Virus record (IMG/VR): IMGVR_UViG_3300031976_000907
Span: 1 to 64,000 of that record
DNA length: 64,000 nucleotides
Reading direction: 5' to 3' (one strand)
Source of the DNA: a virus
Part shown: positions 2,519 through 25,352 of the stretch, in pieces
Layout: every line of letters starts with the position of its first letter
Position numbering within the stretch: position 1 is the first letter of the stretch
The notes under the pieces: generated by a model
Databases searched by the model: none
The model's input: only the letters and a program-made list of their open reading frames with translations
What the model was told of the DNA's origin: nothing
Translations under genes and position numbers: made by a program

Positions 2519-4690
2519 TTAAGCAGCGGGTGCTAGACGAGCGTAGTGCTTAGCGGCAGTTACCATGATGGTGTTTTGAATCTCATCATCAGGTAGTGGA
2601 TCAGGCAGCTTCATGTTGAGGTTACGTACAGACTCTTCGACGTCGCTGAGGCTTTTACCGCCATCGACTAGCAGAAGTGCATAACGAATAACATTGTTAC
2701 TGCGATTACCAACGCCTGTGTTGTTTACAAACCAACGTTCTAAGTTGGAGAGGCTTTGCTGTGATATTAGACGTTCTTTACGTTCTTCGTTTTTAGAAGT
2801 GCGTGGAATGAACGCTAGTGGATCAAACATGATGCCATCTTGTGTAAACACGTTGCCTTGGAATGACTCCCACTTACGAGCACGTTGGCCCGTTTGGTCG
2901 TCAACACTGAATGGAAGCCAGTCGTAGACTGACTGCATAAACTCTTTGTAATCAGAAGAGTCTAGATTCAGTGTGTACTTCATTGGGATAACAATTCTGA
3001 AGCGATCTTCACCAGCCGTCTGATGACGTTTTGTGGTGTAGAACATAGCTTTATAGTCTTTTAACAGATCTTGAGCGACAGCAAGCGGAGTGCCGCCATC
3101 AACATCTATGACAATCAGATTGAATCCTGGTTTAGCCTTCTCTTCGCATCGATGGCCTTCAAGTACATGGTGGGCAACCCAGTGATATCCGTTGGCTTGG
3201 GTTAACTGTCCCAACTGATCCCATGTGATGGTTTCGTTGAGATAGTTGTAAGCAACGTGATCACTGTAAGCAACGGTTAGCTCATCTGTATTGGTTTCAT
3301 CTAAGGTTTCACCCTTGAGGAATTCAATACCTTCTTGGTAATTCTTTTTGATGATTACGTGGTTTGCGTAACCCCAAGCGATTGCCAAGGTGAGCATGTC
3401 TGCTTTAGCAGCAGCCGTACCTTTATAGAATGGTAAGTCCATATCTAAGTCAGCGTGAGTCAGTGGACGTTTCATCTCGCCAAGATACTTGGCAAGTTTG
3501 ACGTACGGACGATCACGAGTCATGAGCTTAGCAAGTTGTTCGCCGGACTCTTCTACTACCGCAACTGCGTTGTAGATATGGTCTGCGTTCACAACAGGGG
3601 AGCCGTCAATAAAGGCATAGGCTGCCGCTAGCTTCCGAGCTTTGAAATGGCGATGTTCCATTTCTGTACGACGAATAACGTCGAACTCCGCAAGCTCGTC
3701 TGCTCGATCTTGGCACCAGATTTGGTACTCAACACAGAGCAGTTCCTCATCACGCTCGATGAGTATTTTGCGGTTGAAATTGCTTGGATCAGCGAGGTTC
3801 ATCAAATGCTCGGCGAAGTCTTCAACCCACGTATATACGGTGGCGTCAGAACGAGCATCAAGTATTTCACGAGCCGATTTAGTACGGCTGCGATTTACTT
3901 CACGTGAGAATCCAAACAAGCTACGACGGGCATAGCCCTTTTCCTGCATTGAGTAAAACTCTTCTTCAGTCTTTGAGCCATCCAATAAAGAGGAGGGCGT
4001 ACCGAACATCAGAACGTTAGTTGGCGTAATGCCTTTTACTTCACTCAAGCGTTGGTTCTCTTTGGTATTTTTTACCAAGGATTCCTTGATCTCGCCTCTG
4101 TCGTAGAGTTCAAGTACCTTTGAGAACGCGTCTGCGTTGCCTGTTAGATTGTCGCCAATCTCGTCAATTTCAAAGTTAAGCGCACCGGCACTAGCTAGTT
4201 TCAGCTTGTGTCGGAATTGCTTTAGTGCTGCAGGCGTAGCGCTGTCGAATTCACTGAGCCATTCACCAGAGGCTTTAAACTCAGCTTCGAGCAGCGATAG
4301 CTCTTCATCGGGATCACTGGCATTACGAATTGCTTTGCGATTAGCAAGCTTAGCCATGTGAACACGCGATACATCAGGAAGGGTCTCCTCCTTAAAGCGA
4401 TCAAAGAACAAGTGAGTTACTTCACGTTCCATGAAACCTTTGGATTTACCTTTGCCTGCACCTGAAGGAGCTAGGTTGATGGCATATACGTTAACGGGGA
4501 GAGTACGCCCATTGTAGAGCTTAATCTCCGTACGCATTGTGGATGCCATCTTCGCAAAAAAATAACCAACCATGACACGGAAGAAGTTAGGGTCTTCGTT
4601 CTCACACTCTTGCATGAGTACTTTGACCAACTTTTCCTGAGCAGGATGGTAACTAATCTTAGACTGATCAAACTGTTCTAATTCACGCAT
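2519..4690 (-). CDS. Primase-helicase: DUF3987-like ATPase with C-terminal archaeo-eukaryotic-type primase region
   Basis: 723 residues, the size and position of N4 gp43 (primase). The N-terminal half has a P-loop (APSGAGKGKSKG, about residues 73-84) and resembles DUF3987-type phage helicase/ATPases. The C-terminal half has a primase-like catalytic signature, IDVDGG (about residue 525) followed by DRFRIVIP (about 560). Last comes a small helical PriCT-like domain. It would prime lagging-strand synthesis for the family A polymerase encoded upstream. Ribosome binding site GGGAGG at ideal spacing supports the ATG at 4690. The assignment to the precise primase superfamily is from motif pattern only. 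Confidence 0.78.
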   Translation of the reverse strand: MRELEQFDQSKISYHPAQEKLVKVLMQECENEDPNFFRVMVGYFFAKMASTMRTEIKLYNGRTLPVNVYAINLAPSGAGKGKSKGFMEREVTHLFFDRFKEETLPDVSRVHMAKLANRKAIRNASDPDEELSLLEAEFKASGEWLSEFDSATPAALKQFRHKLKLASAGALNFEIDEIGDNLTGNADAFSKVLELYDRGEIKESLVKNTKENQRLSEVKGITPTNVLMFGTPSSLLDGSKTEEEFYSMQEKGYARRSLFGFSREVNRSRTKSAREILDARSDATVYTWVEDFAEHLMNLADPSNFNRKILIERDEELLCVEYQIWCQDRADELAEFDVIRRTEMEHRHFKARKLAAAYAFIDGSPVVNADHIYNAVAVVEESGEQLAKLMTRDRPYVKLAKYLGEMKRPLTHADLDMDLPFYKGTAAAKADMLTLAIAWGYANHVIIKKNYQEGIEFLKGETLDETNTDELTVAYSDHVAYNYLNETITWDQLGQLTQANGYHWVAHHVLEGHRCEEKAKPGFNLIVIDVDGGTPLAVAQDLLKDYKAMFYTTKRHQTAGEDRFRIVIPMKYTLNLDSSDYKEFMQSVYDWLPFSVDDQTGQRARKWESFQGNVFTQDGIMFDPLAFIPRTSKNEERKERLISQQSLSNLERWFVNNTGVGNRSNNVIRYALLLVDGGKSLSDVEESVRNLNMKLPDPLPDDEIQNTIMVTAAKHYARLAPAA

Positions 4691-4937: not shown

Positions 4938-5912
4938 CTAGAGTTTTAGTTCACCGGATGCAATGTACTTGTCTTTCTGAGTACAGACAGTAAATGCATC
5001 ACAGTATTTGCATGCGACGATCTCTCCAGGCACTTCTTTAACCTCACCGCCATTCATACTGGCGTGAGTGACTGCCTCGATTCGATCTTCGAAGTTTTTA
5101 GTTGCGCGTTTTTGTCCTGGTTTTTTGTAGTATTTATAAAGCGTTTTCTTACGCCATAGATCTTCGTCAGTACATTCAGGAATGTCCGACTCAGGTGCAT
5201 TTAAATACTTTTTAATTTCAGCGACACGAGTGCGAATATAATGCTCAGTTTCCGGTAAACTTTTTAACGGAAGCTTATATTGCATAACGCGAGTATCAGG
5301 ATATTTAGCTTCAACACGAGCACGTGCTGAGGCCCAATCAGTGAATATAAAATTAATCGACATTTCATCGTCGGTTATTTTAGTTGGATTAAGCCAGCGA
5401 TAAATACTGCCTTGCATAATATATTTATCGTCGTTGGTTTTATTTAAATAGGTATATACGGATGTAGATTTAAAATCCTCTACACGACCTTCAGCAATAA
5501 AGTCGAATTTACCGCTGATAATAAAACCATCTATTTCGCGCTCACTGCGTTGTTCTAAATAAACTGGTATTGCCCCGTTATTTAATTCGTCATCAGTTGG
5601 ATTAACTTTGACCCGATCAATAACTTTTTGTGGGACATTTAAATTAGCTAGGTTGGCTTTATAGTTATCAACCCAAGCACCTTCAATAGCATCGTGGATT
5701 GCCGTACCGATACGTGAAGCGATGACATCAGTAACGTCTGGTACTTGAGCATCTGGACTGACTCTAAGCCCTAGAATGAGCTGGCGCAAAGGCTTGATCA
5801 GGCTGGTAGCGCTAATATGATTAGCACGATCATCGTGATCGTAGGTGTCGTGAGTAAGCCATACAGCAAGTGATAAAGGCAGATTCGCCTTATTAGTATA
5901 GGCAACAGTCAT
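4938..5912 (-). CDS. PD-(D/E)XK nuclease, Cas4/RecB-like
   Basis: 324 residues. The nuclease core is visible at about residues 135-155: GKFDF supplies the Asp and VEDFKS supplies the E-x-K pair of a PD-(D/E)XK site. The C-terminus carries closely spaced cysteines (CKYCDAFTVC, about residue 305), reminiscent of the iron-sulfur cluster of Cas4/AddB-type exonucleases, although the fourth Cys is not obvious. Role in N4-like phages: processing of DNA ends for recombination or replication. It has a GGAG ribosome binding site and begins the nuclease-HTH-primase cluster. Its base composition is more AT-rich than its neighbours. Confidence 0.78.
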   Translation of the reverse strand: MTVAYTNKANLPLSLAVWLTHDTYDHDDRANHISATSLIKPLRQLILGLRVSPDAQVPDVTDVIASRIGTAIHDAIEGAWVDNYKANLANLNVPQKVIDRVKVNPTDDELNNGAIPVYLEQRSEREIDGFIISGKFDFIAEGRVEDFKSTSVYTYLNKTNDDKYIMQGSIYRWLNPTKITDDEMSINFIFTDWASARARVEAKYPDTRVMQYKLPLKSLPETEHYIRTRVAEIKKYLNAPESDIPECTDEDLWRKKTLYKYYKKPGQKRATKNFEDRIEAVTHASMNGGEVKEVPGEIVACKYCDAFTVCTQKDKYIASGELKL

Positions 5913-5962: not shown

Positions 5963-6265
5963 TTAATCGACGAGTATAGGTTCGGTAGGAATAAAGCGAG
6001 GTGCTTTTTCAGTAATCATGAAGCCTAGCGTATTAATGTAGCTAAATCCATGATCAATATAGAGTTCGTTTTCAGCTTCAATAATAGACCAAACATGGTC
6101 ACGATCTAATTTATTTTCAGCTAAATAAGTTTCAGCATCGTATCTAAGCATTAGGCACGAGCCATTACCATAATCAAAACCCATGCCGGGTTTATATGGA
6201 TTGGGGATAGGATTTAATCCTATAAAGTCATTCTCAGTAAACTGAGTTTCATTTTTAATAAACAT
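5963..6265 (-). CDS. Conserved-looking hypothetical protein, acidic, 100 residues
   Basis: Begins MFIKNETQFTENDFIGLNPI with an AAGGA ribosome binding site. Soluble, acidic, rich in aromatic residues, no motif I recognise. It is preceded by a double hairpin (6283-6314) and followed by the nuclease gene; likely part of the replication operon. Confidence 0.6.
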   Translation of the reverse strand: MFIKNETQFTENDFIGLNPIPNPYKPGMGFDYGNGSCLMLRYDAETYLAENKLDRDHVWSIIEAENELYIDHGFSYINTLGFMITEKAPRFIPTEPILVD

Positions 6266-6314: not shown

Positions 6315-6773
6315 TTATAATCTACGCCAAAAGTGTTTAGCAGTATTAAATTTACTGCAGCGGATTATATGCGGGTTAATTAAAAATAGTTGGGAGTCAT
6401 CGCTTACAGATAAATCTAAGGCGATTATTTCATTGGATTTTAATTGTTTTAAAAACCCTAGTTTTTTAAGTTGAGTGAGTGCACGTGAGTGAAGTTTGTA
6501 GACATTGCCTGATCGACTTTCAAATGGCAGTGGGTAACAAGCGTAGTTGGTGTCTGTATCACGATAATGATTGATCTCTACGAACAATCGTTGTGATGCA
6601 GGAGGCAGCTGAACAAAGAGCTCTAGCAGATCGTATTTCTCATTTTTGGTAGACGTTGAGAAAGGTGAGATCGCTTGAAAGCGTCCTAGTGTGTTTCGTT
6701 GTTTGTGCTCAACAGTAAGCTTTACATCGGTTGGGAGTTCAACTCCCATCCATTTAGCGGTTTTTGTGGGCAT
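6315..6773 (-). CDS. Winged-helix protein, plasmid Rep-like or lysogeny regulator
   Basis: 152 residues. The C-terminal two thirds has the pattern of winged-helix replication initiators and regulators such as RepL: a helix (LVQLPPASQRLFVEI-like, about 50-70), a recognition-type helix ending in LTQLKKLGFLKQL (about 100-112) and a strand with LFLINPHII (about 130-138). It is divergent from the integrase across 668 bp holding attP. Two 19-bp palindromes lie 16 and 48 bp upstream of its ATG, which suggests autoregulation or a replication origin. As a candidate repressor or Rep of a temperate phage it is important, but the function is inference. Confidence 0.55.
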   Translation of the reverse strand: MPTKTAKWMGVELPTDVKLTVEHKQRNTLGRFQAISPFSTSTKNEKYDLLELFVQLPPASQRLFVEINHYRDTDTNYACYPLPFESRSGNVYKLHSRALTQLKKLGFLKQLKSNEIIALDLSVSDDSQLFLINPHIIRCSKFNTAKHFWRRL

Positions 6774-6788
6774 TCTATATCCTTAAAA

Positions 6789-6839
6789 ATCTACCTCTAA
6801 GGTAGATAATTAGCACAAAAATCTACTTCTAAGGTAGAT
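6789..6839. promoter_or_regulatory. Pair of palindromic operator sites
   Basis: ATCTACCT-CTA-AGGTAGAT at 6789-6807 (perfect 8-bp arms) and ATCTACTT-CTA-AGGTAGAT at 6821-6839 (one mismatch). Centres are 32 bp apart, three helical turns, which favours two dimers bound on one face. They overlap the expected promoter of the minus-strand winged-helix gene. The 3-nt spacer hairpin shape also resembles N4 virion RNAP promoters, but the loop lacks the purines expected there. Confidence 0.65.
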
Positions 6840-7066
6840 TTTTAAAATGCTAAGTTGTTGATTTTAAAAGGAATATTGGCGTGAAGACTGCCTATATATA
6901 TTTAAATAACTCTATTTAGTTGCTAAATCAAGTACTAATTTAACAAACCTAATCAACGTTACGGATGTAACGAGGGGCACTTTTATAACATAGATTATTA
7001 GTAACTTTAAATGAGTATAGGTTGTAGCCTATATGCTTAGCGAGCGCTTGGAGCACTGGAACGAGC

Positions 7067-7431
7067 ATGGACGTCAGTCCACGCGCAGTGTAGAGTGCGA
7101 GAAGAGATAGCGAGCTGCGCAGAGTATTAATAATAGTATTATTATAAGTACGTCTAAGAGTACGGGTTAGAGTACGAAGTACGGATTGCCAATGGACGTC
7201 AAGTGGGCGTCAGTAACGCTACAGATCCCATGTTTACTCAGTTCTAAAGTCCGGTCCGGGGCACCATTTTCAGATTTTCCATACCTTTACAAACTTCTAA
7301 TATTACCTTCTAAAGCCCAATATACGGGCATTTCAGGCAGTTAGTCTGCTTGCTATGGTTTTACTCTTACTGGCATAATTCCACACCTTTCTGCGATGAA
7401 GGACGTCAAAAGACGTCAAGTCGGACGTCAA
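7067..7431. other. Phage attachment site attP with arm-type repeats
   Basis: The 20-nt core 7247-7266 ends in CCGGGGCACCA and has the spacing of a tRNA 3' end: AAGT of a T-loop, 5-nt T-stem CCGGT, 7-nt acceptor strand CCGGGGC, discriminator A and CCA. With a preceding TTC this would be a typical tRNA-Leu end (TTCAAGT loop). Flanking direct repeats GGACGTCA occur at 7069 and 7195 (a weaker GGGCGTCA at 7205) on the left and at 7401, 7411 (AGACGTCA) and 7423 on the right, as expected for integrase arm sites. The integrase starts 10 bp after the last repeat. Confidence 0.68.
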
Positions 7432-7441
7432 TGGAGTGGTT

Positions 7442-8422
7442 ATGGCGACATTTAGAAAAAGAGGATTACGTTGGTTTGCTGAGGTGAAGCTTAATGGTGT
7501 GCGTAGGGGTAAAACCTTTGACACTAAAGCTCAAGCAAAGAACTGGGCTGCTGCCGAGGAAACTCGGATTAACAGCTTAGGGGCTGGTGTAAGCCAAACA
7601 CATACACTGGGTGATGTGATGGAGCGTTACTTAAGTGAAGTGTCTCCGACAAAGCGAGGAGCTAAGTGGGAGAGTAATAGAATTATTGCTTACCTTCGCC
7701 ATGAGATCTCTACAGTAAAGTTAATGGATCTGAAGCGAGAGCACTTTGAAGATTTAATCGAAGAACGTCTCAAGTCTGTTAAGCCAAGTACAGTTAACCG
7801 TGATCTGAATCTCATCAGTAACTGTCTGACGTATGCACGTCGTTGGAGGTTAATGGATCACAATCCATTTGATGACTTGAAGCGTCCAACCGATCCTAAG
7901 CACCGTGAGCGTCTTATCTCTGTTGAAGAAATCGAAGAGATATTAATTAGCTTGGGTTACGTAGAAGGGGTTAAGCCAACTCTAAAACAGCATTATGCAG
8001 GATATGCATTTTTGTTTGCGATAGAGACAGCGATGCGTTTAGGTGAATTAACTGGCTTACGTCCTGAAGATGTCAATCTTACAAAGCGTGTAGCGCACTT
8101 ACCATTAACTAAGAACGGCTCGGCTCGCTCCGTTCCACTCAGCTCCCGTGCCGTTCAGCTATTAACTATGTTAAAGCCGTGGGAGCATGAGACTATCTTT
8201 CAGATGTCTTCAGAACAATGTGGTGCGTTGTTTCGTAAGGGGTTAGTGAGAACCAGGATAGAAGATTTAACGTTTCACGATACTCGCCATGAAGCGATTA
8301 CTCGTTTAGCACGTAAGGTAGAAGTATTAGATTTGGCTCGAATAGTGGGCCATAAAGACATCAAGATGTTGATGCGGTATTACAACCGAACAGCTGAGGA
8401 TATTGCTGCTCAGTTGGATTAA
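7442..8422 (+). CDS. int: Tyrosine site-specific recombinase (phage integrase)
   Basis: 326 residues from ATG 7442 (GGAG at 5-nt spacing; a GTG at 7436 is the alternative). N-terminal beta-sheet arm-binding domain (RKRGLRWFAEVKLNGVRRGK, residues about 4-23), then a SAM-like core-binding domain (about 50-150) and the catalytic domain with all expected residues: R199 (AMRLGEL), K224 (LTKNG), H279-x-x-R282 (HDTRHE), H304 (GHKD) and Y313 (MRYYN). It should integrate the genome at a host tRNA gene using the adjacent attP. The stop overlaps the convergent AlpA-like gene by 4 bp. An intact integrase is unexpected in an N4-like phage. Confidence 0.93.
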   Translation: MATFRKRGLRWFAEVKLNGVRRGKTFDTKAQAKNWAAAEETRINSLGAGVSQTHTLGDVMERYLSEVSPTKRGAKWESNRIIAYLRHEISTVKLMDLKREHFEDLIEERLKSVKPSTVNRDLNLISNCLTYARRWRLMDHNPFDDLKRPTDPKHRERLISVEEIEEILISLGYVEGVKPTLKQHYAGYAFLFAIETAMRLGELTGLRPEDVNLTKRVAHLPLTKNGSARSVPLSSRAVQLLTMLKPWEHETIFQMSSEQCGALFRKGLVRTRIEDLTFHDTRHEAITRLARKVEVLDLARIVGHKDIKMLMRYYNRTAEDIAAQLD

Positions 8423-8679
8423 TGTTTTACAGCCCACTTAATAACGTCCTGAGCACGCCACAGAGCGTTGCTACGCTGTCCTCTACCGTTTGGTAGGCGT
8501 ATGGCTTGGGGAAAGCTTTCTTGCTTGCTAGTGTGGTCTCTGAACGTTGTAGGTGATTGGCGTAAGTAAAGTGCGCAATCCTTACCGTTCCAAAGAGTTG
8601 TTTCATCTGGATGGCTCACCGCCAACCGCTGCGCTATGGCGTTCGCCAATAGATCATAATCAATTGATAAATCAGTCAT
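8419..8679 (-). CDS. AlpA/MerR-type helix-turn-helix protein
   Basis: 86 residues from ATG 8679, chosen because GGAG lies 8 nt upstream (a longer frame to 8715 lacks this). It has the HTH_17/AlpA pattern: LWNGKDCALYLRQSPTTFRDH, then FPQAIRLPNG and a final W-R-x-x-DVIKW. Such proteins regulate excision or integrase genes of prophages and satellites. It is convergent with int, sharing four bases at the stop codons, and follows the Xis-like gene. Confidence 0.75.
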   Translation of the reverse strand: MTDLSIDYDLLANAIAQRLAVSHPDETTLWNGKDCALYLRQSPTTFRDHTSKQESFPQAIRLPNGRGQRSNALWRAQDVIKWAVKH

Positions 8680-8720
8680 TGTGTTCTCCAAAGGTAGTGC
8701 CTCTGTGCGAGGCACAAGCC

Positions 8721-8903
8721 TTAGTGAGTAGTTGAAGTTTCGTCTTCCATTTGGGAGACATCAACGTACCAAGAGGTGCCAATTTTTTGAGCATTTGGTA
8801 ACAGTCCGTTGTTTGCCCACCGTCTTACTGTTGCCGGTGAGGGCGGAGTCACAAAATACTCTTTTCGCCACTCTTCAAGTGCCATCAGTTTAGGGTGATT
8901 CAT
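8721..8903 (-). CDS. Excisionase-like small DNA-binding protein
   Basis: 60 residues. Resembles lambda-type Xis and related winged-helix excisionases: LEEWRKEYFVTPPSPATVRRW (residues 8-28, compare Xis with its L-x-EW and ETVRRW) followed by a wing GTSWYVDVSQME. Partner to the integrase for directional excision is the likely role. It lies between two other small HTH genes. The ribosome binding site is weak. A simple AlpA-like regulator is the alternative. Confidence 0.7.
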   Translation of the reverse strand: MNHPKLMALEEWRKEYFVTPPSPATVRRWANNGLLPNAQKIGTSWYVDVSQMEDETSTTH

Positions 8904-8914
8904 GATTATTCAGC

Positions 8915-9256
8915 TTATTTTAGTAAGCTGCCTTTGTTAGTGGTTTTAGTCTCTTTAGACCAATGAACACCAATCATGTTGCCAAGCAGTTTGGTAAACC
9001 AAGATGGTGCTTTATTTTGTGTAACCTCACCTTTGAATACGGTTTCAGTTTCCGTAATAGGTGCAGGTAAAGGAGGTGGTGTACGTACAGCAGTGCCACG
9101 AACATATTTTTCGTTAAAACACTTTTTGTAAATTGCAGAGCGAGTGCGGTTAAACACTTTTTCTAGCTCATAGATTGATACGCCAGCGGCGTACATATCT
9201 TTAAGCAGTTTTAATTCTTTGCGTGACCAAGCACGACGTTTGATTTGTGTAGTCAT
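8915..9256 (-). CDS. Myb/GcrA-like HTH DNA-binding protein
   Basis: 113 residues with GGAG ribosome binding site. Residues 6-50 form a SANT/Myb-like or GcrA-like three-helix HTH (RAWSRKELKLLKDMYAAG, then SIYELEKVFNRTRSAIYKK). A Pro-rich linker (TPPPLPAP) leads to a short C-terminal part with WFTKLLG. First gene of the small leftward regulator group beside int; a terminator lies immediately upstream, so it may have its own promoter. A role in the lysogeny decision is possible but unproven. Confidence 0.65.
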   Translation of the reverse strand: MTTQIKRRAWSRKELKLLKDMYAAGVSIYELEKVFNRTRSAIYKKCFNEKYVRGTAVRTPPPLPAPITETETVFKGEVTQNKAPSWFTKLLGNMIGVHWSKETKTTNKGSLLK

Positions 9257-9445: not shown

Positions 9446-10084
9446 TTACATCAACAGATCAGTAATGATGGCTTTTACTTGCTTAGCAATTTCGATGTGC
9501 TCAGCCTGTGTACCATTACCTTCACGTACATCAATGTAGTGAAGCCATGAACGCAGTGTGCCTGCCATATACATGCGTGAGCGCGTATTGCCTTCAGGCA
9601 GTACAGCGCGAGCTTGTTCTTTAGCAATGCCATTTTGAAGTGCCCACTGGTACGCTGTTTCAGCGGCAGTAATGACACTGTCTTGACGGCGATCCCAAGC
9701 GTTTTGTAGATCCTGGTCTTTAACTGCAATTGAGTTCTGACGGTTCTTTTGATCCTGTAGGCGAGCTTCACGTAGATCAAAGCCTAGCTTTTCTGTAATG
9801 GGATCAGCGTAGCGTTGTGAGAACTCTTGGAAACTAAAGCTGCGATGGCGCAGTATCTGACGAGCGATGTCACGAGTTGTATTGATCTCCATAGTAAGAG
9901 AGACCATTTCAAACGGTGACCAGTGCTTTTCACGCATGAGATAGTTAAACAACTTCTCAGCTGTATCAGTGTTGTCTTGGTTCTTTGGGTTTGAGACACG
10001 TGCGCAAAAAACCACCAACTCTTTAAGAGTGGTGGCTTCTGGGATACACGGCTCACTTTTACAAACAAGTGAAACAGTGTTCAT
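9446..10084 (-). CDS. thyX: Flavin-dependent thymidylate synthase ThyX
   Basis: 212 residues. It carries the ThyX signature RHRSFSFQEFSQRY (about residues 78-91; family pattern RHRxxSxNxxSxR), the preceding HWSPFEM strand, and the C-terminal ARAVLPEGNTRSRMYMAGT and TQAEHIEIA segments that bind FAD and dUMP. It converts dUMP to dTMP with methylene-tetrahydrofolate and NADPH, supplying dTTP for phage DNA. AAAGGAAC precedes the ATG; it follows the phosphoesterase gene by 11 bp. Confidence 0.93.
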   Translation of the reverse strand: MNTVSLVCKSEPCIPEATTLKELVVFCARVSNPKNQDNTDTAEKLFNYLMREKHWSPFEMVSLTMEINTTRDIARQILRHRSFSFQEFSQRYADPITEKLGFDLREARLQDQKNRQNSIAVKDQDLQNAWDRRQDSVITAAETAYQWALQNGIAKEQARAVLPEGNTRSRMYMAGTLRSWLHYIDVREGNGTQAEHIEIAKQVKAIITDLLM

Positions 10085-10095
10085 TAAAGTTCCTT

Positions 10096-11253
10096 TTAAA
10101 TTTGGCTTATATTGACTGTGTGGCGTTCGACTTCACCGTACTCGATGTGAACCACGAGGGCTTTGGTGTCTTGTCCCGCTCTCCATCCACCGCTGTAGGC
10201 ATAATTGTCTTTGGCGGCAAGGGTTCGAAAGCTCTCCACGGTACATCCCCCGTACTCTTTGCGAGAGTCGTGGTGAATGTGTCCCGTTAACCAATAACGA
10301 TTGGCACAATCTCCCCAGTCAGTTGCTCTATCGGTAGCCATGACGAGAGGGAGTTTGTCAGCTTTGGCTTGGTGCCCGTGATGCACTCCAAAGAAATTAT
10401 TTCCAAATCGGAAATATTGGAACGCGTCGTTTTTACAATGAATAACGACTCGAGGTTCGTTTTCGTACATGTGTTTCAGTGCAACCATTAAGAACATTGA
10501 TGAAACATCATCGTGATTACCAATAGCGGTAATAACTTCGACGTGTTCATGGTGTTCAAGTGCTGACTTAATCATGCGACGCATAATCTTTACACCTACA
10601 TCGACCATGCTGAGATAGTCTTTGTCAGTATCAAGATGATGCCCGTTGCGGCTAGTAACGCCTGCTACGTTGTCGTAGTGGAAGTAGTCACCTAAGTTAC
10701 AAATGACTGCACGTTTACAGCTAGGAGTGGTTTTAACAATGCGATCAAACGCATTGAGAAAGACTTTTTCTGCAATCTCCAAGTCCCAATCGGTGCCTGA
10801 GATTTCTTTAAGCGCTGACATACCAATGTGTGGATCACCTAGTGGGTAGATCGCCATTAGATTGTGATCAGCATAACCTGTGTAGGCTGAAGGCTCTAGC
10901 TGAGGCAACTCAGCAACGAGCGCTTCAGACATGTCACTCATAAGACGCGCTTGAGCTTCTTTAGCAACATCCGTTTTAACCCACTGACTTTTGACGTTAC
11001 CGTCTTCGTCGTAAAGGGTAGAGACGCCTTTAACAATGTGAGATTTAGGTGCTGTGTGCGTCATGTCGTGCTCAGGTGCATAGCCCTGAATAGCTGCACG
11101 ATCTTTCATGCGTTTTACAGCTTTACGAATATTTCGTTCTGATACACCTAATGCTGTAGCAGCCGCTTTTTGCGTCTGATGTTCAACAAGGGCATCCAAT
11201 ACTTCGTGTTGTCGAATAGTTTCGGCGTACTCACGGTACTGTTCGTAGTTCAT
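10096..11253 (-). CDS. HTH domain fused to calcineurin-like metallophosphoesterase
   Basis: 385 residues. An N-terminal HTH (about 22-50: QKAAATALGVSERNIRKAVKRM) precedes a metallophosphoesterase domain with all metal-binding blocks in order: GDPHIG, NLGDYFHYDN, AIGNHDD, VHHGHQA and TGHIHHD. Similar HTH-phosphoesterase proteins occur in many phages; substrate unknown (DNA 3' ends, cyclic nucleotides or other phosphodiesters are possible). GGAG ribosome binding site. Co-directional with thyX, suggesting a nucleotide or DNA metabolism unit. Confidence 0.88.
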   Translation of the reverse strand: MNYEQYREYAETIRQHEVLDALVEHQTQKAAATALGVSERNIRKAVKRMKDRAAIQGYAPEHDMTHTAPKSHIVKGVSTLYDEDGNVKSQWVKTDVAKEAQARLMSDMSEALVAELPQLEPSAYTGYADHNLMAIYPLGDPHIGMSALKEISGTDWDLEIAEKVFLNAFDRIVKTTPSCKRAVICNLGDYFHYDNVAGVTSRNGHHLDTDKDYLSMVDVGVKIMRRMIKSALEHHEHVEVITAIGNHDDVSSMFLMVALKHMYENEPRVVIHCKNDAFQYFRFGNNFFGVHHGHQAKADKLPLVMATDRATDWGDCANRYWLTGHIHHDSRKEYGGCTVESFRTLAAKDNYAYSGGWRAGQDTKALVVHIEYGEVERHTVNISQI

Positions 11254-11297: not shown

Positions 11298-11714
11298 TTA
11301 TGCGCACTTATTAGCAGGTTTGCACATAGGGATCTCTTCAAGGAGAGCCGCTTGTGCTTTGAGCGCTTTGTTTTCAGTTTTAAGGTTTGCAATCTCTTCT
11401 TGCAGGATTTCAGTAATCACTGCCTGGTTAAGAGATTGCTGAGTTACTGGACGTTGAAAGTTCTCAGGGATCGCTTCTAGATCTTCTAGAAGACGGTTGA
11501 GATACACGTTATCGTCGTCAGTTCCTTCAAGCAGGGAGGTGATGCGTTCAAGATAGATGCGAGTTACTTCAAACACTTCAATGGCGTTCTCAAAAGAACG
11601 TAAGACTTCTGGAGAGTAGTCTGAACCAATGTCAGTGTGTGAGCGGTAGATCTCGCCATCAAGTTCTTCACCTAGTAGCTGAAGTTTGAGACGGATATCA
11701 GTTAGTGTGTCCAT
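11298..11714 (-). CDS. Helical protein with C-terminal coiled coil, unknown function
   Basis: 138 residues from ATG 11714, which overlaps the end of the HTH-Phd gene; the longer frame to 11765 would lie deep inside that gene. Mostly helical and acidic, with a coiled coil near the C-terminus (EILQEEIANLKTENKALKAQ) and a Cys-containing tail (MCKPANKCA). Translational coupling to the upstream regulator is likely. No family recognised. Confidence 0.6.
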   Translation of the reverse strand: MDTLTDIRLKLQLLGEELDGEIYRSHTDIGSDYSPEVLRSFENAIEVFEVTRIYLERITSLLEGTDDDNVYLNRLLEDLEAIPENFQRPVTQQSLNQAVITEILQEEIANLKTENKALKAQAALLEEIPMCKPANKCA

Positions 11715-12198
11715 GATTAAATTCCGCTTTACGTTCGATGTACTCGTCAATGGGAACCAAGACAAACCGAGGTTGTTGACGGTACGTTATTAAAAGTTTT
11801 TCATCTTGCGTGGCATCTTCTGTGATCTCTCTGCCAAGCTCGCTGGTTGAGACTTCACGAATGTTCAGTCCAAGGCGAGGTACAGAGCGAATGTTGTGCT
11901 CACGCATTTTGAGATAAACAATGCAGGTACTAAGACCCAGCACGTTTGCAATTTCTTCTGCGCTGTAACAGTTCTCCCAGAGAACGGTAATGTCGCTGAT
12001 TAATTTGCTATTTCTCATTTCTGATCCTGATGGAAAGCCCCAACGTGCCCTACGACACCAGATTGTGTCTTTGGTTACGCCAAAGTGGTGGGCAATTTTA
12101 GAGTCCGACCAGCCTTGCTTGATCATGCTAAGCACGTCGTCACGGTCGGTATCGAAAGGGGGTTTGTATAAAACCTTGTTCGGGCTTGTACGGGACAT
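11698..12198 (-). CDS. Tandem HTH protein fused to a Phd/YefM-like antitoxin domain
   Basis: 166 residues. Two HTH units are visible: residues about 20-52 (MIKQGWSDSKIAHHFGVTKD) and 76-100 (YSAEEIANVLGLSTCIVYLK). Residues about 115-157 follow the Phd/YefM dimerisation fold: VSTSELGREITEDA, KLLITYRQQPRFVLVPIDEY. Phd proteins are antitoxins and autorepressors; here no toxin gene is recognisable next door, so it may be a transcription regulator or an antidote against a host toxin. AGGAA ribosome binding site. The fusion is unusual. Confidence 0.7.
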   Translation of the reverse strand: MSRTSPNKVLYKPPFDTDRDDVLSMIKQGWSDSKIAHHFGVTKDTIWCRRARWGFPSGSEMRNSKLISDITVLWENCYSAEEIANVLGLSTCIVYLKMREHNIRSVPRLGLNIREVSTSELGREITEDATQDEKLLITYRQQPRFVLVPIDEYIERKAEFNHGHTN

Positions 12199-22193: not shown

Positions 22194-23390
22194 TTAACTC
22201 AATGCGTAATTGCTGTTAGCAATATACGTGGAGAGATTTGGTTCAAATTTGTTGATATGAACGTGGTAGCCACGTACTTGTGAGAGCAGATCAGAGAGTA
22301 ATTCACTGTCAGCCAGTTCACAGAACATGTCACGGTACGTTTCACGCAGTCTTTGCATATTGTTAGGGTGGCATTTGAATTCATCATGTACACACACAAC
22401 AGGGAAGGGCTTATGCGTTAGACACTTTTCAATCATTGCTTTTAAGCGAATGAGCGTACTAAAGCTGTAAGCCACTAGGTTGGTATGATTGATCTCATCG
22501 ACAAGCTTTAAGCTTACGAATTCAGACGTATCGACAACTGCAATCTCAATATCTTGTAGATACTCATCCAGTAGCTCGTGAACACGAGTCAATTGGGCTG
22601 GATTGTAGTTACAGCGACGATTCATCTCACGCACTAACATACCGTCAATTGAGTGGACAATGTTAGCGGCGATCGACAAGCCTGATTCAGTGCCTACGTT
22701 CTCATAGAAGCGGTGAGTGAACGTCATGTGATCGAGTTCATCGATCTCTACTTTCACATCGACTGCGTCCATTACCTTACATTTGGCTTCAAAGCCATCA
22801 GGTAGAACCCATTCATGGCTCAATTCGAACGGTTGCCAAGATTCAAGCAGTTTATCCATGACATCGACTGCACCAGGAGCGATAGTCGCTTGTGCCTGGT
22901 AGAAGCATTCCAGTTCTACAGTATCTTCACCAAAGATCTCTTTTGGCTTCGCATTAGAGCCATAGAAGTGAGTCATTAGAGCTTGTTTAACGTCTTTACG
23001 TGCTGGCGCTACAGATACGCCATGCTGTTTAAGCAAGTCGTTCATTACAGCAGTGCAATGCGTGTAGATATCAGCACGAGTGGTAGGATCAATCAGTCCT
23101 GTATTGGTACATGTCTCTGGATCACCAATGAGCGTACCCATTATTTGTAATCCGCTACTGCAAGCGTCCAGACCCACCATGTGTCCGGTTGGTTGTCCAT
23201 TTTGAGCAGCACGAAGTGCCATCACACCGGCTAGAAACAGTGGAGCGTCATCTGCTTTATCAATGAGTCCTTCTAGCTCATCAATGTGGGTATCAACCCA
23301 AGCAATACGGGCTTCAAACAGCTCTTTGTCCATACCAAAGGCGTTCGCAATATCAATCTTGATGTATTCGAATCCAGTAAATGTTTGCAT
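22194..23390 (-). CDS. RNA polymerase II subunit 2 (N4 gp16-like), catalytic part of a split T7-like RNAP
   Basis: 398 residues from ATG 23390 (GGAG upstream), close to N4 gp16 in size. It holds the catalytic half of a single-subunit RNAP: motif A GLDACSSGLQ (Asp about 74), motif B RKDVKQALMTHFYGS (Lys and Tyr, about 130-140) and motif C VHDEF (Asp about 336). With RNAP1, encoded 1 kb upstream, it should form the heterodimeric enzyme that transcribes middle genes in N4. A terminator hairpin lies just in front of its ribosome binding site. Confidence 0.92.
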   Translation of the reverse strand: MQTFTGFEYIKIDIANAFGMDKELFEARIAWVDTHIDELEGLIDKADDAPLFLAGVMALRAAQNGQPTGHMVGLDACSSGLQIMGTLIGDPETCTNTGLIDPTTRADIYTHCTAVMNDLLKQHGVSVAPARKDVKQALMTHFYGSNAKPKEIFGEDTVELECFYQAQATIAPGAVDVMDKLLESWQPFELSHEWVLPDGFEAKCKVMDAVDVKVEIDELDHMTFTHRFYENVGTESGLSIAANIVHSIDGMLVREMNRRCNYNPAQLTRVHELLDEYLQDIEIAVVDTSEFVSLKLVDEINHTNLVAYSFSTLIRLKAMIEKCLTHKPFPVVCVHDEFKCHPNNMQRLRETYRDMFCELADSELLSDLLSQVRGYHVHINKFEPNLSTYIANSNYALS

Positions 23391-23404
23391 AGGTTTCTCC
23401 TCAC

Positions 23405-23427
23405 AAAAGGGCACGGAGGTGCCCCTT
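23405..23427 (-). terminator. Terminator hairpin directly in front of RNAP2
   Basis: GGGCAC-GGAG-GTGCCC followed on the minus strand by TTTTGTGAGGAG, so the U-run runs into the RNAP2 ribosome binding site. Possible attenuation point between the early small genes and RNAP2. Confidence 0.65.
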
Positions 23428-24018: not shown

Positions 24019-24459
24019 CTACTTAATGGCAGTAAGGATTTTGTCGAGCTTGCCTGACTTTTCTAGCTCAGCCAGAGAAGACATTGCAGCTTCGGCACGC
24101 TCTAATAGAGCAACCATGCGTTCAAGACGCTCAAAGTTGGCAGTCTTTTCAATGCGCTGCACTCCATCTGAGATCCTTTGATAGGCGTCACGGACTTTGC
24201 CTGATACTTGCTTTACAGATTCAGTAATGGCTTTTTCTGATTGAGTGACGTCATCTGTACGTTGACGAATCACTTCTAAGTATTTATCTAGTTGCTCTGT
24301 TGCGTTGTTTAGATCATTGCTCATTTTTTTCACCCGTTTGGTTAAGTAGTTGCCAGCTTTGTCATCGTTTAGCATCGAAACGATAGCTTTAGTCACTGTT
24401 GTTTCTGCGAACAACGGTTCACCGCGTTCGATCTTCTCTATGCCGTTGTATTCGTACAT
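24019..24459 (-). CDS. Coiled-coil protein encoded between the RNAP subunits
   Basis: 146 residues. After a 35-residue head, residues about 45-140 are continuous heptad-like helix (MSNDLNNATEQLDKYLEVIR ... LERMVALLERAEAAMSSLAE). The ATG lies inside the end of the RNAP1 gene with GGAGGG 4 nt upstream, so it is translationally coupled to RNAP1. Could be an accessory factor of the polymerase or a structural adaptor; inference only. Confidence 0.65.
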   Translation of the reverse strand: MYEYNGIEKIERGEPLFAETTVTKAIVSMLNDDKAGNYLTKRVKKMSNDLNNATEQLDKYLEVIRQRTDDVTQSEKAITESVKQVSGKVRDAYQRISDGVQRIEKTANFERLERMVALLERAEAAMSSLAELEKSGKLDKILTAIK

Positions 24460-25352
24460 ACACCCTCCACTAGCTCTGGTTCAGCAAACTGAATCATCGC
24501 TTTTCTAAATGAATTACCTTGAGTGCTCACGTGATAGCCCTGAGCGTAGGTGCGACCACGTTTATCAACGCGGTGCGTTAGGTAAAACTCGTTACCTTGT
24601 TGGATTAGCTCCTTGTAGACTCGGTATGAGTCATTCACAAACTTCATCCACTGCTCACGTTGCTTACCATCTTTGAAATCACGCTTAGGCGTCTCTGAAA
24701 GGGTAGTCAGCAACTCAACATTCAAGGTAAGCGGTACTTGATTGAACTTATTGATACTGTCGAGGCAAATTTCACCTGTATGGAAGTTACCTTTACCCAG
24801 AATCATGCTTTCACGCTTGGTGAGATAGCCTGAGTCGTAATTACTGCGCACTTTGTTAGGTGGACAGATCATTGGAGGAAGGTATTGAGCCTGCATCATG
24901 TAACGACGCAGTTCTTCAGACAGATCGTAGTTCGATACAATGTAAAGCGAGGCAAACTTATCCTCTTTGATAATGTCCCAGACATCTGCTTCACACAGTA
25001 CAGCAAGTAGTTCACCCGCCATCTTTGCACCGTCACCTTTATCCGTCATACCAATGACAGAGGCGACTTCACCTACAACAGAGGTGTAAAGCTCAGGTAC
25101 TCTCTTTGGCACAACAACGTAGAAGATGTCATACACTAGCTCCAGCAAATCTGTCTTACGCTCAACAAACTCAGCTATGCGCTGGTTCTTTGAGTCGTAA
25201 TAGCTTTGGCTTACGTAATCTTGGATTAGATTGACGCACTCCAATGCCGAAGCGTGAAGCTCTGGGCACTCTGATATCTCCTGAATCAGTTTCTTCTTCA
25301 CAGCACGTTTGCTGTACATGTTCTCGATCTCGCGTTGGTTCTCTATGTGCAT
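24438..25352 (-). CDS. RNA polymerase II subunit 1 (N4 gp15-like), N-terminal part of a split T7-like RNAP
   Basis: 304 residues (N4 gp15 is about 270). It corresponds to the region before the catalytic palm of T7 RNAP: PPMICPPNKVRSNYDSGYL (about 160-178) matches the T7 VVPPKPW-GGGYW block and HRVDKRGRTYAQG (about 260-272) matches T7 DWRGRVY, ending about 25 residues later. The catalytic motifs are supplied by RNAP2. The ATG at 25352 has AGAGAGG upstream, but an overlapping frame from 25443 may encode a further N-terminal segment. Confidence 0.88.
   Translation of the reverse strand: MHIENQREIENMYSKRAVKKKLIQEISECPELHASALECVNLIQDYVSQSYYDSKNQRIAEFVERKTDLLELVYDIFYVVVPKRVPELYTSVVGEVASVIGMTDKGDGAKMAGELLAVLCEADVWDIIKEDKFASLYIVSNYDLSEELRRYMMQAQYLPPMICPPNKVRSNYDSGYLTKRESMILGKGNFHTGEICLDSINKFNQVPLTLNVELLTTLSETPKRDFKDGKQREQWMKFVNDSYRVYKELIQQGNEFYLTHRVDKRGRTYAQGYHVSTQGNSFRKAMIQFAEPELVEGVCTNTTA

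Follow-up and report, generated by a model that had tools for sequence, protein, structure and literature searches.

Predicted integration module of an N4-type phage and its integrated relatives

N4-like phages are treated as lytic, and they are used or proposed for therapy on that ground. What role might an intact integrase gene have in such a genome? The question is raised by a window of 64,000 bases, the first part of the 71,350-bp IMG/VR virus record IMGVR_UViG_3300031976_000907. An earlier note on this window described a lysogeny-like gene set between thyX and the replication genes; this set is real, and its coordinates hold. We read the locus, with a probability of about 0.9, as a complete set of site-specific integration functions in a temperate phage of the Schitoviridae (N4 type), which would almost certainly be able to live dormant in a host, unlike N4 itself. 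This reading is built on comparison of the gene set, of the anatomy of the phage attachment site (attP) and of integrated relatives with both junctions, from which we infer lysogeny of the present phage. From thyX to the exonuclease, the locus encodes proteins of 113, 60 (excisionase family) and 98 amino acids (aa), then the integrase, and, beyond a non-coding stretch of about 660 bp, proteins of 152 and 100 aa. The components of the module are as follows.

6315-6773, minus strand: 152-aa winged-helix-like protein, candidate regulator of the lysogeny region, on the P-arm side of attP
7247-7270, plus strand: attP core AAGTCCGGTCCGGGGCACCATTTT, the same sequence as the tRNA-Leu(UAA) 3′ end
7442-8422, plus strand: tyrosine integrase (Int), 326 aa; PF00589 (E 8e-21), phrog_1 (E 7e-61)
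8419-8715, minus strand: 98-aa convergent partner of Int; phrog_4996 (unknown function)
8721-8903, minus strand: 60-aa excisionase-family protein; PF07825 (Exc, E 7.5e-9), phrog_629 excisionase (E 1.6e-13)
8915-9256, minus strand: 113-aa putative helix-turn-helix (HTH) protein; weak match to phrog_323 (D5-like regulator, E 2e-5)

Judged from its sequence, the surrounding genome is of the N4 type (Schitoviridae). The gene for RNAP2 (22194-23414) matches phrog_2051 (E 1.3e-146), that for RNAP1 (24438-25352) matches phrog_2166, annotated 'N4-like RNA polymerase' (E 8.5e-96), and the DNA polymerase, primase and portal match the N4-type families phrog_17, phrog_2135 and phrog_1216, each with E < 1e-150. 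The portal and primase match 465-497 phage records, those listed being N4-like phages, and the nearest annotated portals, about 60% identical, belong to N4-like phages of Klebsiella, Salmonella and Vibrio. Beyond the window, at 60793-70857 of the record, an open reading frame (ORF) of 3354 aa occupies the position of the virion RNA polymerase (vRNAP); this label comes from its size, its position and its homology to the ORFs in the same position of two prophages described below. The length of 71,350 bp fits the range of about 60-80 kb for Schitoviridae, with the left half of the genome mostly on the minus strand and the right half on the plus strand. Both ends of the record carry the same 91-bp direct repeat, a terminal overlap, and therefore the assembly closes as a circle.

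The replication genes have the same order, around DNA polymerase, (thyX), a gp42-like exonuclease and a gp43-like primase, in the lytic N4-like Erwinia phage vB_EamP-S6 and Pseudomonas phage Ab09, but these two are without an integrase. The gap between thyX and the gp42-like exonuclease is only 51 bp in Erwinia phage S6, and thus the module fills a junction that is empty there. The genes that flank the module are listed here.

2519-4690: gp43-like primase
4938-5912: gp42-like exonuclease
5963-6265: 100-aa protein (orf100), without family matches
9446-10084: thyX

Integrase and attachment site

The integrase is intact, as the earlier note held. Its catalytic residues R199, K224, H279, R282, H304 and Y313/Y314, counted from the ATG at 7442, are complete and invariant across aligned relatives. 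Translation most likely begins at this ATG, because relatives begin with MATF; a GTG at 7436 is disfavoured for the same reason. The protein is 61% identical (E 4e-123) to the integrase of a prophage in Marinobacterium litorale, and the differences between the two genes at codon positions 1, 2 and 3 (0.34, 0.25 and 0.64) are similar to those between the portal genes (0.26, 0.18 and 0.61). This concentration of change at third positions shows that int has been under purifying selection.

The attP core AAGTCCGGTCCGGGGCACCATTTT lies within the non-coding stretch between int and the 152-aa gene, and it comprises a T-arm, an acceptor stem and CCA. This site does not appear in the earlier note. The core was called a tRNA 3′ end from its letters alone, ahead of any host sequence, and the M. 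litorale sister prophage was later located in a tRNA-Leu(UAA) gene. The longest match to the tRNA-Leu(UAA) stretch is 21 nucleotides (nt) at attP, compared with 13 nt at most in the remaining bins of equal size across the window and 11 nt at most in 500 shuffles. The core is present once in the window, and an exact search for it across viral contigs gave no match. In favour of the reading, a relative of M. litorale in the same family (G075, L147) carries a free tRNA-Leu(UAA) gene of which 24 nt are identical to the core, and this relative is a candidate host; the 24-base pattern, with at most 1 mismatch, occurs in only 1 of 392 genomes of the order.

There are six arm-type repeats, all on one strand, that flank the core on both sides. 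Their offsets are counted from the TCCGG of the core.

7070-7076, plus strand: distal P-arm repeat GACGTCA, -180
7195-7201, plus strand: P-arm site GACGTCA, -55; offset matches TACAGCA in the M. litorale right junction (attR)
7206-7212, plus strand: P-arm site GGCGTCA, -44; offset matches the M. litorale attR
7402-7408, plus strand: P′-arm site GACGTCA, +152
7412-7418, plus strand: P′-arm site GACGTCA, +162
7424-7430, plus strand: P′-arm site GACGTCA, +174

The 10/12-nt spacing of the P′ triplet recurs exactly in several further relatives, 40-47 nt before the int start, and none of 2000 shuffles contains such a triplet with up to 4 mismatches. In the M. litorale prophage the arm sites read TACAGCA and are found at -55 and -44 on the attR side and at +150, +160 and +172 on the side of the left junction (attL), which also holds the only perfect consensus for IHF. 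A more distant relative (54%) has an 11/12 triplet, with arms at -56, -45, +138, +149 and +161 around another tRNA-Leu-like core. A constant geometry combined with a changed sequence is the trace that would be expected of an integrase and arm sites that co-evolve.

A recombinase of this family could instead serve some other function, such as the resolution of genome multimers or the inversion of a segment. XerC/XerD-type models do match Int weakly, and some of its relatives carry a shufflon recombinase annotation. However, the core is the 3′ end of a tRNA with arm sites on both sides, it is single-copy in the window, and the phage that encodes the sister enzyme is integrated at that exact tRNA, which makes a role other than lysogeny very improbable.

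Integrated relatives

N4-like primases, used as a profile against 84,980 genomes, gave 20 loci, one of them in M. litorale. Several matches in metagenome-assembled 'genomes' (L016-L030) are on phage-sized or short contigs and were excluded from the evidence for integration. The earlier note would have been refuted by a complete lack of related integrated genomes, but two were found in cultured marine strains, M. litorale DSM 23545 and Alteromonas sp. BMJM2, both opened at the position of the module. Its inference that the phage is temperate is strongly supported by these colinear N4-type prophages, although the support does not come from experiments on the present phage.

The M. litorale prophage, part of which is in IMG/VR as 2522572179_000012, has its integrase directly behind an intact tRNA-Leu(UAA), the 3′ end of which shares 21 nt (7248-7268) with the present core at attL. 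It extends for 56 kb to the contig end (C16:44376-100274) and is colinear with the present genome from Int to vRNAP, with about 30 genes in order; the portals are 68% and the RNAP2 proteins 59% identical. Its attR is also present, on contig C25, where a host sensor-like gene is followed by the core, a 161-aa gene, homologues of orf100 (47%) and the exonuclease (55%), and the first part of the primase, while the remainder of the primase and vRNAP are on NZ_AUAZ01000052. Thus, the two phages share Int, a 98-aa partner (46%), the opening point, the tRNA, the arm geometry and a colinear genome. They differ in arm-site sequence, no thyX, Exc-type or 113-aa homologue was found in the M. litorale prophage, and its 161-aa gene, which stands in place of the 152-aa gene, is poorly similar to it. 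Adjoining the int partner in this prophage there is also a gene for a hydrophobic, membrane-like protein (L132:5625-6083), likewise of 152 aa, that is possibly a lysogenic-conversion or exclusion gene.

The Alteromonas prophage is complete. It occupies 72.7 kb of the 233-kb contig NZ_JAPVOT010000007.1 (G001:C65) and is bounded by two perfect 30-bp repeats (attL and attR) at 22699 and 95378, one of which forms the 3′ terminus of an intact tRNA-Leu(GAG), with host secG-, tpiA-, glmM- and folP-like genes beyond. The primase (58%), portal (61%) and DNA polymerase (56%) are related to those of the present phage. The opening point is also the same, in that attL is followed first by a homologue of the 152-aa gene, while the integrase gene abuts attR. 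The integrase is of another type, however, with 421 aa, an Arm-DNA-bind_2 domain and the opposite orientation.

A free-form record of 73 kb (L152, IMG/VR 3300003780_000003) carries, in order, an integrase of the Alteromonas type, a tRNA-Leu 3′-end core, the 152-aa homologue, exonuclease and primase, and another locus (L034) carries an integrase end followed by the same three genes. The Alteromonas provirus and L152 therefore resemble the present phage in their N4-type core, in the 152-aa homologue beside attP and in a tRNA-Leu integration site, but they differ in having a reversed integrase of 417-421 aa whose 3′ end abuts the core and, in Alteromonas, in the use of tRNA-Leu(GAG). Because Alteromonas and L152 share the locus but have the other integrase type, the integrase cassette has been exchanged at a constant locus beside a retained 152-aa gene. 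This shows that lysogeny is a swappable module in the lineage.

The cassette of integrase and partner is, on these comparisons, of an ordinary temperate-phage type that has been exchanged at the present spot during the evolution of N4-type phages. Integrases related to Int are common in non-N4 temperate phages, and a search of viral contigs from the single Int sequence gave one match, in a non-N4 phage. The same integrase family is present in Pseudomonas phage Riah (Int 47.6%) and Acinetobacter phage TRS1 (43.8%), which at 40-45 kb are set apart as other phages by name and size and were compared at the Int match only. Such relatives are also what a chimaeric assembly, wherein an N4-type phage was joined to a temperate one, would lead us to find. 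Nevertheless, the contig closes through its terminal overlap, and M. litorale, Alteromonas, L034 and L152, which are independent sources, share the gene order at the locus. We regard an assembly artefact as the least probable explanation, with next to no likelihood.

The preferred reading, site-specific integration, predicts the following course. Int would bind the arm sites on both sides of 7247-7270, probably together with a host bending protein, and would recombine the core with its identical counterpart at the 3′ end of a host tRNA-Leu(UAA) gene. The tRNA would be restored, since attP carries its 3′ end. The circular genome would open between int and the 152-aa gene, which should therefore come to lie just inside attL and just inside attR, respectively. 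Excision would require Int and a small directionality factor, encoded at 8721-8903 or 8419-8715.

Regulation, rarity and a lytic alternative

There are two near-identical palindromic operators upstream of the 152-aa gene, whereas the number expected from shuffles is 0.00.

6789-6807: operator 1, ATCTACCTCTAAGGTAGAT
6821-6839: operator 2, ATCTACTTCTAAGGTAGAT

Each spans 19 bp. Paired palindromic repeats are also located between attP and the position of the 152-aa gene in L034 and M. litorale, and similar-looking repeats are visible in Alteromonas. Homologues of the 152-aa gene itself are found beside attP or attL, before the exonuclease and primase, in the Alteromonas provirus (L013:8528-8950; 34%, E 1e-21), L034 and L152. 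The protein has no match in Pfam, NCBIfam or PHROG, and a tblastn search of 50,697 phage records gave none. Its AlphaFold model has elements in an HTH-wing-like order, with a predicted local distance difference test (pLDDT) score of 54, and matches of this model to folds in the PDB (TubR, CodY and MarR types) are below significance. With so poor a model, assignment to a family was dropped. Of the earlier description of a winged-helix gene with paired operators, the operators therefore stand, while the winged-helix label goes back to this model. The operator layout points to autoregulation or to a switch that acts locally, rather than to a lambda-like repressor with many operators. We consider the 152-aa protein to be a candidate for such a switch and for the repressor that would maintain lysogeny. 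A scan for the sigma-70 consensus found 4 matches, compared with 6.7 in shuffles, which is no better than chance.

Several observations weigh against a temperate life for this phage. No integrated copy of the phage itself was found. Within the window, the operators are confined to the region upstream of the 152-aa gene, and family scans of the module ORFs identified no CI-type repressor. In a survey of 27 N4-like records, an integrase cleared the Pfam cut-off in one record and was a weak match in another, with none in the 8 isolates. Finally, the M. litorale prophage is probably defective because an IS630-like transposase gene, seen as a DDE-type frame at both contig ends, interrupts its primase; the assembly is broken at the insertion site, which covers L015:1-333 and the end of L151 (G003:C25:50000-55384), beginning at about 5050.

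These points would fit a module that is a recent passenger, wherein Int and attP are intact but the N4-type lytic programme is unregulated, so that integration would seldom occur or would abort and the phage would in practice be lytic. Ordinary temperate phages also have Int and its 98-aa partner, a CI-like repressor was not found, the integrase is missing from most N4-like relatives, and an insertion sequence disrupts the M. litorale prophage. However, cultured strains stably maintain two N4-type prophages that are independent of each other. In addition, the third-position bias of Int divergence indicates long purifying selection inside the N4-type lineage, and the 152-aa gene is retained beside attP across lineages even as the integrase type changes. 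We therefore judge a recent passenger to be unlikely, and retain the reading of a temperate phage.

How does a phage that injects its own RNA polymerase stay quiet as a prophage? In N4, early genes require the virion-packaged vRNAP, middle genes require RNAPII and early cofactors, and late genes, whose products include the packaged vRNAP, require the middle-gene product N4SSB (PMC4496689). Perhaps N4-type prophages are silenced by their own transcription cascade and not by a CI-type repressor, a proposal that we advance tentatively and that is somewhat more likely to fail than to hold. With no virion entering the cell, an integrated genome would then be silent by default, and the choice between integration and exit would fall to the host-transcribed attP region alone, with its int and 152-aa genes.

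Prophages of this kind are rare, because a search of 117 genomes from the M. litorale family gave RNAP2 in only 2. The view of the earlier note that N4-like phages are strictly lytic is nonetheless out of date. The main text of a 2023 mSystems study describes 54 N4-like genomes and proviruses with lysogeny genes, and 40 proviral regions, mainly from Moraxella (PMC10654107). As in the present case, these are Schitoviridae-type genomes with an integrase and with integrated copies in bacterial contigs. That main text contains no attL and no Marinobacterium, its one mention of a tRNA concerns host prediction, and Alteromonas appears in one cited title only. N4-like lysogeny is thus already known but little studied; what is new here is the anatomy at the level of the sites and the exchange between integrase types at a single locus, and exact attachment sites, hosts and junctions are now given for integration by some N4-like phages.

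Partner genes and other loci

There are two candidates for the directionality factor. The protein encoded at 8721-8903 was called Xis-like in the earlier note, which agrees with its matches to PF07825 and phrog_629. The 98-aa protein encoded at 8419-8715 had been called AlpA-like, but this label is rejected, as there is no Pfam AlpA match and phrog_4996 is its sole family. At E<=1e-8, more than 30 of the 80 best Int loci, many of them in temperate phages, have a homologue of it next to int, as does the M. litorale prophage, while a tblastn search of the 50,697 phage records gave no match. Because its homologues recur beside int, the 98-aa protein rates as equal to the PF07825 protein, and it is a candidate directionality factor or regulator. 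Likewise, the Myb/GcrA-like label for the 113-aa protein (8915-9256) has no family support beyond the weak phrog_323 match and is rejected; homologues of this protein are absent from both prophages.

Tyrosine recombinases are also present in two other N4-like metagenome records (L094/L145, G019:C1:49826-50308; and G015:C1:3613-4065). The one in G019 is about 17 kb from the primase, elsewhere than the place of the present module. An 865-kb chromosome contig of Moraxella macacae (L032) has an N4-like primase match over residues 320-717 only, which may mean that the provirus there has decayed or been split. Phage-sized contigs in bins of Caryophanon, Gastranaerophilales and Clostridia (L027, L019 and L022) carry N4-like primases, which reflects either unusual hosts or binning errors.

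Two genes beyond thyX encode proteins with HTH-like N-termini. The first (10096-11253) encodes a 385-aa protein with weak KORA/HTH matches and a calcineurin-like phosphoesterase domain, and copies that are about 54% identical are found in three N4-like loci (L016, L101 and L106). The second (11698-12198) encodes a 166-aa protein with an HTH_23-like N-terminus and a C-terminus that weakly resembles the Phd/YefM antitoxins. This protein has homologues in both prophages (39-48%), and overlapping matches in Alteromonas suggest an internal repeat.

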